Under the pieces are notes generated by a model. The model made no database searches and was not told the origin of the DNA. It worked only from the letters and a program-made list of their open reading frames with translations. A DNA stretch of 64,000 bases, taken from NCBI GenBank assembly GCA_018432315.1, contig JAHDLB010000018.1, positions 124,001-188,000 on the forward strand, written 5' to 3'. The position numbers were made by a program, and so were the translations under genes. This DNA is from Anaerolineae bacterium (GTDB taxonomy: Bacteria > Chloroflexota > Anaerolineae > Aggregatilineales > Aggregatilineaceae). Shown here piece by piece: positions 47,750-49,035 of the stretch; within the stretch, counting starts at the first letter, position 1; each line of letters opens with the position of its first letter.

Positions 47750-47785
47750 AAAACAGCGGAGGGCAAGCCCGAAAGCTCGCCCTCC
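47750..47785 (-). terminator. Terminator of the B12-riboswitch-controlled gene
   Basis: GGAGGGC and GCCCTCC pair, with an inner AGC/GCT stem, 12 bases after the stop codon. Four T residues follow after a short G/C stretch on the minus strand. Confidence 0.55.
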
Positions 47786-47797
47786 CTGCCCCAACGC

Positions 47798-48739
47798 CTA
47801 TTCTACCACCGGCGCGGGCATCCACGCGTTCAGCGGAACCCCTTCGAGCGCCGGGACTACCGCAATCGTCGCCAGCAGGTTGGCATCCGGAAAAGCTGCC
47901 TGGTAAGCGAATGCCCCGTTCTCGAGTTGCATCCCGGCCAGCCAGTCCTGCGGATCGTTCCACTCCGCGAGGTCCGCGCCCGCCGCGACCAGCGCCTGGA
48001 TCACCAGCGCCGTCGAGTTCGTGTCGCTGTCGGTGCCGAAATCGCTCGGATTCTGGTACGGCCAGCCGCCGTCCTCGTTCTGGATGCCGCCAAGGTAGGC
48101 CAGCCCGGCATCGACCGCGTCCGCCTCGCCGGTGGGAACCAGCGCCTGGATGCACAGCGCCGTCGTGTTCGTATCCGGCGCCTCACCCGTCATGAAACCC
48201 CAGCCGCCTTCGGCGTCCTGCAAGTCGAGCAGCGCCGCGACGGCCCCATCGGGCAGCGCCGCGCCCGCGTTCTGAAGCCCGATCATGGCGGTGCAGTGTT
48301 CGAACGCGCCCATACCAAACAGGCCATCCTCGCTTTGCATCGCGAGCAGATCACCGGTCAGGTCGTGCCCGGCAAATGCTGCCGTATCCTTACCCACCGC
48401 CGCCACCGCGCTCAGAACTTTGGCGAGCGCGCCCACGCTGCCGGCTTCACCCCCGGCCACCTGCATCCCCAGAAATGCCAGCGGGTTCATCATCTCGCCC
48501 GTGAGATACGCGTTGGGATCCTCGCCCGCGGCCACCGCTGCCAGCACCACGTCCGCCGTCGCCGCGATGTCGCTCTCCGGCGCGAACCCGTTCGAGAAGC
48601 CGCCGTCTTCTTTCTGCGCCGACCGCAAGAACGCCAGCGCCTGGGCCGAGGGAGTCGCATCATCCTGGGCCATCGCCGGGAAGACCATCGCCAGCGCCAC
48701 ACACAGCGCCGCCGCCAGAAGCACAAACCGTTTTGCCAT
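47798..48739 (-). CDS. Secreted alpha/alpha-toroid (squalene-cyclase-like repeat) protein under B12 riboswitch control
   Basis: 313 aa. Sec signal peptide (about 1-25, ending AMA-Q) without lipobox. The mature part has about six helical repeats with QW-like motifs: QKEDGGF, QSEDGLF, QDAEGGWGF, QNEDGGWPY, QLENGAFAY. This is the alpha/alpha-barrel repeat of squalene/hopene cyclases, and also of the N-terminal domain of transcobalamin and intrinsic factor. No cyclase DxDD motif is seen, and there is no DUF4430-type C-terminal domain. AAGGAG lies seven bases before ATG. The leader has a cobalamin riboswitch and terminator, so expression should rise when B12 is scarce. Extracytoplasmic B12 capture is the inferred role; a salvage peptidase-like or unrelated role cannot be excluded. 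Confidence 0.82.
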   Translation of the reverse strand: MAKRFVLLAAALCVALAMVFPAMAQDDATPSAQALAFLRSAQKEDGGFSNGFAPESDIAATADVVLAAVAAGEDPNAYLTGEMMNPLAFLGMQVAGGEAGSVGALAKVLSAVAAVGKDTAAFAGHDLTGDLLAMQSEDGLFGMGAFEHCTAMIGLQNAGAALPDGAVAALLDLQDAEGGWGFMTGEAPDTNTTALCIQALVPTGEADAVDAGLAYLGGIQNEDGGWPYQNPSDFGTDSDTNSTALVIQALVAAGADLAEWNDPQDWLAGMQLENGAFAYQAAFPDANLLATIAVVPALEGVPLNAWMPAPVVE

Positions 48740-48772
48740 GTTGTTCTCCTTGATCAAGATTGCACTGCCAAC

Positions 48773-48803
48773 AAAAAAGCCTTCCTTGCAGATCAAGAAA
48801 GGC
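48773..48803 (-). terminator. Riboswitch expression-platform terminator
   Basis: A 10-bp stem (GCCTTTCTTG/CAAGGAAGGC, one G-U) with a 5-base loop is followed by six T residues on the minus strand. It lies between the cobalamin aptamer and the start codon, so it is the likely ligand-controlled switch. Confidence 0.85.
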
Positions 48804-48868
48804 GCCCGGCTAAGCTATTTTACGTGACATAGCCACCTCCAATCCGCGAGAGATGATCCATCAGGGTC

Positions 48869-48986
48869 GTTTCAGGCGGGTAATCTGGCTCTGCCACGAG
48901 GGCACTACAGTTGCGGGTCAGCACCGGACTTCGACCGGTTTCCCCCTGCTCAGGCCGCAGCTTCCGGGCTTGCGGCCACCTGAAAC
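48869..48986 (-). promoter_or_regulatory. Cobalamin riboswitch aptamer
   Basis: On the minus strand the P1 stem GTTTCAGG/CCTGAAAC closes the element (48979-48986 and 48869-48876). The core shows GGGGGAAACCGGTC, then GTCCGGTGCTGACCCGCAACTGTA (with the diagnostic CCCGCAACTGTA at 48906-48917) and the B12-box-like AGAGCCAGATTACCCGCC (48875-48892). Size about 118 bases, compact for the class. It should bind adenosyl- or another cobalamin and promote termination at 48773-48803. Confidence 0.92.
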
Positions 48987-49006
48987 AGCTATTCAATTGT
49001 GTGCGG

Positions 49007-49035
49007 AGTATACCTCACGCCGCGCCGCTAACCAA
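49007..49035 (-). promoter_or_regulatory. Promoter of the riboswitch transcript
   Basis: TTGGTT, 17 bases, TATACT on the minus strand. The -35 overlaps the acpS stop codon; transcription would start about 15 bases before the aptamer P1 stem. Confidence 0.6.

Follow-up and report, generated by a model that had tools for sequence, protein, structure and literature searches.

A cobalamin riboswitch ahead of a secreted alpha/alpha-toroid gene in a Chloroflexota bacterium: candidate alpha half of a split, transcobalamin-like B12-capture system

The riboswitch leader and the toroid gene

The window (the whole stretch of DNA that was analysed, 64,000 nucleotides) belongs to a Chloroflexota bacterium and carries on its minus strand a toroid gene preceded by a leader that holds a cobalamin aptamer and a terminator (Table 1). 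When the whole window was searched with the covariance model RF00174, the aptamer was matched over its full length and clearly over the gathering score (55.2 vs. 31.5 bits; E 5.3e-11). An earlier reading of this DNA, made from the sequence alone (the sequence-only reading), had placed a cobalamin aptamer here; its P1 (GTTTCAGG/CCTGAAAC), the core CCCGCAACTGTA and the B12-box-like AGAGCCAG were all found in the window sequence as written. The promoter that it proposed is likewise in the sequence, running from 49035 to 49007 and agreeing with 8 of 12 consensus positions by manual count, but it is unproven because it fell below the threshold of the consensus scan. The proposed terminator with six T residues was borne out by a 10-bp stem (48803-48779) followed by TTTTTT (-14.4 kcal/mol, z -4.0), in a scan that expects 1.6 such sites by chance in the window stretch. 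A hairpin with a T-run occurred in the leaders of all eight close relatives examined, two of them having only four T and being judged by eye. The cobalamin riboswitch leader contains a candidate expression platform (48803-48773), and switching would presumably be of the OFF type, in which B12 represses the toroid gene. The element that follows the aptamer (CATCTC...GAGGTG) possibly forms a short hairpin between aptamer and terminator, with a putative function of its own, and the string TCTCTCG[CT]GGANNGGAGGTG was common to the leaders of the window and eight relatives. A tiny frame, MSRKIA, with GGAGGTGG ahead of it, also lies between aptamer and terminator (48810-48830, minus strand); it is probably due to chance, since it was not evidently kept as a frame in the leaders of relatives.

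Table 1. Features of the riboswitch-toroid locus in window coordinates
Feature	Position	Strand	Basis
Promoter-like site TTGGTT-17-TATACT, weak	49007..49035	(-)	sequence reading; under consensus-scan threshold
Cobalamin riboswitch aptamer (RF00174)	48858..48998	(-)	55.2 bits, model positions 1-189
Post-aptamer element CATCTC...GAGGTG	48834..48855	(-)	pairing judged by eye
Intrinsic terminator, presumed riboswitch expression platform	48773..48803	(-)	scan and folding; equivalents in relatives' leaders
Alpha/alpha-toroid protein, 313 aa, SCO2321-like, without C-terminal membrane anchor	47798..48739	(-)	Pfam/NCBIfam matches, model
Signal peptide, about 25 residues	48665..48739	(-)	by eye; model helix 2-23
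Terminator-like hairpin right behind the toroid gene	47758..47785	(-)	scan: 12 pairs, 8 GC

The toroid gene starts with ATG at 48739 and ends at 47798. Its product begins with a Sec signal peptide, recognised by eye, with cleavage near the AMA/QDD junction, and matched three toroid-type Pfam families (squalene-hopene-cyclase/prenyltransferase) over their cut-offs, in keeping with the earlier description of a secreted toroid behind a cobalamin riboswitch. The match to the NCBIfam family SCO2321_fam (NF053823) reached 98.2 bits over four stretches vs. a curated cut-off of 300. The AlphaFold2 model, built from 42 aligned sequences (pLDDT 93), displayed the alpha/alpha barrel that is characteristic of the transcobalamin family; the protein ends after the toroid, with no C-terminal beta domain in the same chain. 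Judging from the sequence, the protein would be secreted, with export not followed by anchoring. The neighbours of the gene are an acpS-like gene before it and an NAD-dependent epimerase gene after it, neither of them a transporter, as had been noted earlier. The hairpin right behind the gene is argued from its position and not from its existence, because the scan expects 1.6 chance sites per stretch.

Fold comparisons placed the toroid nearest to class II terpene cyclases among solved structures (VIA Z about 26). Transcobalamin (TC:CD320, 4zrp_A) was matched by Foldseek at rank 37 (E 3.6e-5; TM-score 0.58 by query length) and had no row among the best 50 VIA matches listed. The fold comparison with transcobalamin that the sequence-only reading had envisaged therefore returned a match, but a more distant one than to the cyclases, so that a transcobalamin-like role could not be deduced from the toroid fold by itself. 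Pfam has a curated family of eukaryotic cobalamin-binding proteins; it was not among the hits of the window toroid up to E 1. Neither was a transcobalamin chain present in the 47 hits obtained up to E 10 in a sequence-profile search of the PDB.

These matches raise the alternative of a toroid enzyme outside the cell, terpene-cyclase-like or glycan-acting, whose expression is tied to B12 status and which might for example free corrinoids from a matrix. Both the best fold and the best sequence matches were class II terpene cyclases, and glycan-acting toroid enzymes were also among the matches. The catalytic motif of class II terpene cyclases is DXDD. At the corresponding place, located by eye in the alignment, the ten rows of the window clade (the window and its nine closest relatives) all read D189-T190-N191-T192; in the 32 other rows position 191 was N in 28 and D in 4, and position 192 was T or S in 42 of 42 rows. 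The signal peptide and the transporter genes that adjoin relatives (described below) fit uptake better than catalysis. A terpene cyclase was rejected on the absent DXDD, the signal peptide and the context, and we consider an enzymatic role of any kind very improbable.

Homologous loci and the beta-domain partner

The toroid was present in 131 of 249 genomes of the class to which the window organism belongs, as found by protein search. Rfam matched a cobalamin aptamer, as RF00174 or the related RF01482, at 27 of the 29 best class loci other than the window's own, five of these scoring best as RF01482; two loci (L019 and L030) had no aptamer at the Rfam threshold. Among the loci of the window clade, 8 of 9 showed an Rfam cobalamin aptamer, the ninth beginning inside the gene. 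In a scan of named genome contigs, a full-length aptamer was detected 106-1410 bases ahead of the matched stretch at 73 of 80 named loci, which are the best 80 of 220. This last search used a home-made model (R1) for which the window aptamer and those of twelve homologue loci, 13 in all, had served as input, and the 73/80 is not independent, as the Rfam counts are, because some source contigs of R1 recur among the 80. The seven loci not counted had little or no upstream sequence (L095 and L110), a partial aptamer (L147 and L153) or none (L139, L156 and L165). The pairing of aptamer and toroid persisted down to about 35% identity and across differing gene neighbourhoods; homologues that lack the riboswitch and sit in unrelated operons, which would have spoken against the sequence-only reading, were thus not the rule. 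Three loci presented unusually long cobalamin aptamers of about 230-280 bases, a length from which we conclude that they hold large insertions, with toroid genes downstream (L121:6276-6554(+), L012:2696-2951(-) and L013:2691-2923(-)).

The same persistence bears on the alternative that the toroid gene is a passenger with no relation to the riboswitch, which would have some other task here. The window and its nine closest relatives had no transporter neighbours within the DNA fetched, as would be expected of a passenger, but a linkage kept at such divergence and in different surroundings argues against it; this reading is disfavoured and we give it hardly any credence.

Around many homologues a recurrent set of genes was observed, in variable order: the aptamer, the toroid, a small secreted protein usually with a terminal hydrophobic helix, EcfT (CbiQ family), a double EcfA ATPase and an ECF S component. 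The gene maps are based on tblastn because four toroid genes, those of L033 (the window's own locus), L035, L036 and L059, escaped the gene caller, and the neighbour counts cover the DNA fetched, several loci stopping at a contig edge. Within these limits, an SCO2322-like gene was found at 60 and an EcfT or EcfS match at 54 of the 80 named loci (the best 80 of 220), and among 39 class loci other than the window's own, 33 had the small protein and 27 EcfT/EcfS. One ECF-type operon was confirmed with the Pfam families CbiQ, ABC_tran and ECF_trnsprt. For the toroid itself, the C-termini of 15 other distinct relatives were read: 8 ended in a hydrophobic helix, often behind an LPxTG-like segment, and 7 did not.

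The small protein matched the NCBIfam family SCO2322_fam (NF040672) at E up to 1 in 26 of 27 members, so that toroid and small protein correspond to the SCO2321 and SCO2322 families; with the scores given here lying under the curated cut-offs (34.9 vs. 85 for the first partner), the window toroid and the partners are remote relatives of these families. Pfam gave no meaningful domain in any of the 27 members up to E 5, sequence-profile searches of the PDB returned unrelated hits only, and the kinship of the partner with transcobalamin was seen by fold comparison only. The model of one SCO2322-like protein (L100, pLDDT 85) had as its best 15 rows 14 entries of the beta domain of transcobalamin, intrinsic factor or haptocorrin plus 3u7z, with Z 10.2-11.5, the next row falling to 5.5; Foldseek agreed on a transcobalamin-type beta domain. 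The beta-domain fold was therefore found, as a predicted structure, in the partner protein of relatives and not in the window protein.

Toroid and beta domain occurred together in 109 of the 249 class genomes, with the toroid alone in 22, the beta domain alone in 7 and neither in 111, counts uncorrected for kinship and obtained by scoring at most 13 first-look candidates per genome in the beta search. A second version of this comparison leaves out 16 weak toroid hits, which were picked after the data had been seen. In view of the ECF neighbourhood and the predicted beta-domain fold, the toroid and its SCO2322-like partner resemble a bacterial transcobalamin that has been split in two. Naturally fused chains, which combine the beta domain with one toroid domain or several, were also observed (L053/L148, L070 and L068), in beta-alpha as well as alpha-beta order.

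The window clade, its candidate importers and the corrinoid supply of the window genome

In the toroid tree, the window and its nine closest named relatives (L088-L096, 55-67% identity) lay together on one side of a branch (support 98/68). Within the DNA fetched, L088-L096 had neither the small protein nor ECF genes beside the toroid, three of their contigs ending 1.9, 3.6 and 2.9 kb after the toroid gene (L090, L093 and L094, respectively). All ten proteins end after the toroid, without an anchor, and share C149 and C196, which appeared in 1 and 0 of the 32 other rows, respectively, and possibly form a disulfide. The window toroid is an off-shoot of the toroid (SCO2321-like), beta (SCO2322-like) and ECF arrangement widespread in the class.

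A beta domain was found in 5 of the 9 genomes of relatives in the clade and in none of the other four. In all five it forms the N-terminal part of a BtuF-like protein encoded between btuC and btuD; Pfam identified Peripla_BP_2 in the two such proteins tested, and FecCD and ABC_tran at one locus. RF00174 lay upstream of four of these five operons, whereas the fifth (L180) had no aptamer by Rfam or R1 in the 708 bases ahead of the btuC match. In three genomes (G249, G250 and G254), for each of which 113 of the 186-269 candidates were scored, RF00174 was found twice, at the toroid gene and at the beta-BtuF operon; in a clade genome where no beta domain was found (G255) an aptamer preceded a btuC-like frame truncated at a contig edge. 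The fusion of beta domain and BtuF points to a physical hand-over from carrier to importer. The earlier statement that the protein lacks a beta domain holds, and none was found in the window genome when all first-look candidates were scored, but the wider system does have the domain, separate or fused, including the BtuF fusions of these five genomes.

This distribution also bears on the alternative that the toroid assists B12 uptake as a docking or receptor subunit without binding corrinoid itself; binding would be left to the beta domain or BtuF, and the toroid would position these at the cell surface. In many ECF-type loci toroid and beta domain are encoded by different genes, some of the products ending in a hydrophobic helix. 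Attachment of the beta domain to BtuF also occurs, and the isolated beta domain of human transcobalamin has been solved with cyanocobalamin (PDB 5np4, by its title); all of this is compatible with such a role. On the other hand, the window genome and three genomes of the same order have retained the toroid although no beta domain was found in them, which would be surprising if the toroid did nothing but dock that domain, and we regard docking as the unlikely option, albeit the strongest of the rival ones.

As regards the importer, no CbiQ/EcfT was found in the window genome (5.69 Mb), which contains two strong FecCD systems. One of them (L077, contig C24) has the BtuF-BtuC-BtuD-like layout of a predicted importer; its permease is 38% identical to the permease of L063, and no riboswitch was detected at the locus by Rfam or R1. 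The other (L078) was rejected as a B12 importer because a Moco (Mo/W) riboswitch precedes it (RF01055, 61.1 bits, L078:9615-9797(-), contig C61), upstream of a Peripla_BP_2 protein, a FecCD permease and an ATPase. A third FecCD match (contig C35, 28.6 vs. 26.5 bits) was discarded, being part of an ABC-3-like set beside a Fur-like frame as judged by eye, and a fourth (contig C29) remained below the cut-off. In three genomes of the window's order (L063-L065), toroid, BtuF, BtuC and BtuD follow in a row after a gene named queG-like by eye; no aptamer was found there by Rfam or R1, and no beta domain. The toroid of L063-L065 continues at its C-terminus for about 100 further residues; the one such extension that was searched against Pfam gave no match. 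In the window genome, hand-over would be to the BtuFCD-like locus on contig C24.

No CbiC match was obtained in the window genome, and one (partial) match among the twelve genomes tested; five B12-binding domains in the window genome exceeded the cut-off. Together with its reductive-dehalogenase-like genes, this indicates that the genome probably depends on imported corrinoid. With 150 of 305 first-look candidates scored, the one other RF00174 match found in the genome was borderline (31.8 bits vs. the cut-off of 31.5; L079:7474-7553(-), contig C21) and lay between two such reductive-dehalogenase-like genes, which have PF13486 and 4Fe-4S domains. On account of these neighbours it was rejected as the marker of a transporter; if real, it would represent B12 control of a B12-dependent enzyme family.

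A proposed split carrier and its relation to known systems

Four observations combine to place the toroid in B12 acquisition: its riboswitch, its signal peptide, the genes that adjoin its relatives and the fusion of beta domain and BtuF. The explanation that we favour, with a probability of roughly three in four, is that the locus is a B12-repressed single-gene unit for a secreted, unanchored capture protein, the alpha half of a carrier, which would feed a BtuFCD importer encoded elsewhere. According to this explanation, low cellular cobalamin would let transcription pass the terminator, and the exported toroid would capture, or help to capture, corrinoid outside the membrane and deliver it to the importer, whose BtuF carries a beta domain in the five sister genomes, four of those operons being preceded by a riboswitch; in most relatives the partner is a separate beta-domain protein beside ECF importer genes. 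Corrinoid binding by the toroid is thus a prediction drawn from sequence and context. The transcobalamin-like capture role proposed by the sequence-only reading remains the best interpretation, owing to the riboswitch linkage and the context of relatives. The simplest mechanism by analogy would be a carrier split into alpha barrel and beta domain, with an importer of the ECF or BtuCD type. The window version may be the alpha half alone, which may bind corrinoid without a beta domain, have an unrecognised partner or do no more than dock to BtuF. Against the favoured explanation stand the terpene-cyclase-like fold, the lack of a Pfam cobalamin-binding hit, the failure to find a beta domain in the window genome and in four of the nine other genomes of the clade, and the lack of an aptamer at L077, L180 and L063-L065; moreover, release into the medium would waste protein unless it were retained at the surface.

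A bolder version, tentative and in our opinion rather doubtful, is that the window protein is a diffusible protein-based cobalophore, alpha-only, released when B12 is scarce, binding corrinoid without a beta domain and recognised by a BtuF importer. The clade would then have arisen when an ECF-linked toroid left its operon, and with it any anchor, and joined BtuCFD, the beta domain being fused to BtuF in the sisters and lost here. If this were true, a counterpart of the animal-type B12 carriers, made of halves that can be interchanged, would exist in bacteria.

An alpha/alpha barrel joined to a beta domain also makes up the animal carriers (transcobalamin, intrinsic factor and haptocorrin). 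Their beta fold is the one predicted for the SCO2322-like partner of relatives, and extracellular capture is the presumed task here too. In contrast to them, the present system is bacterial and riboswitch-linked, its halves are mostly separate genes or have the beta domain on BtuF, the alpha half alone was found in the window genome, and the toroid fold is nearer to terpene cyclases. BtuG of Bacteroides is also an extracellular B12-capture protein that adjoins B12 transport genes and feeds an importer, but it is a seven-bladed beta-propeller surface lipoprotein working with the outer-membrane BtuB (part of the text of PMC6143338). ECF-CbrT (PMC5997447, abstract) and BtuCDF represent the transporter types that are beside relatives or in their riboswitch-linked set, and the abstract on ECF-CbrT mentions no toroid or beta-domain partner (PMC5997447). 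The solved structure that the beta partner matched best (Z 11.5) was RUMGNA_00854 of Ruminococcus gnavus (PDB 3u7z), a bacterial beta domain already solved, annotated differently, as a 'putative metal binding protein'; that bacteria contain such beta domains is implied by this entry. The parts are therefore of known kinds, namely riboswitch, toroid, beta domain, and ECF and BtuCDF transporters. No description of a bacterial toroid/beta-domain B12 system, split transcobalamin or beta-BtuF fusion was found in the open literature searched, with subscription papers and preprints outside its scope, and the parts covered of PMC4350170, PMC2667541 and PMC12713380 contain no bacterial split transcobalamin or beta-BtuF fusion.

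How B12-requiring bacteria gather the rare vitamin outside the membrane is poorly known for many of them. The toroid/beta pair offers a concrete candidate function for two families that are named only after Streptomyces genes (SCO2321 and SCO2322), names that give no function; riboswitches, adjoining genes and a gene fusion link the two families to B12. With this pair, transcobalamin, intrinsic factor and haptocorrin also gain a relative, or a parallel, that can be tested.

Further riboswitches came to light in the window clade. Ribonucleotide reductase and MetE genes are the usual company of B12-repressed switches. In G256, the sole aptamer site found adjoins a magnesium-chelatase-like frame, as judged by eye, and in G252 two additional aptamer sites were located by eye beside ribonucleotide-reductase-like and MetE-like frames. 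These two cobalamin riboswitches of G252, on contig C7 (L188 and L197), are strong, with 129.5 and 121.1 bits.
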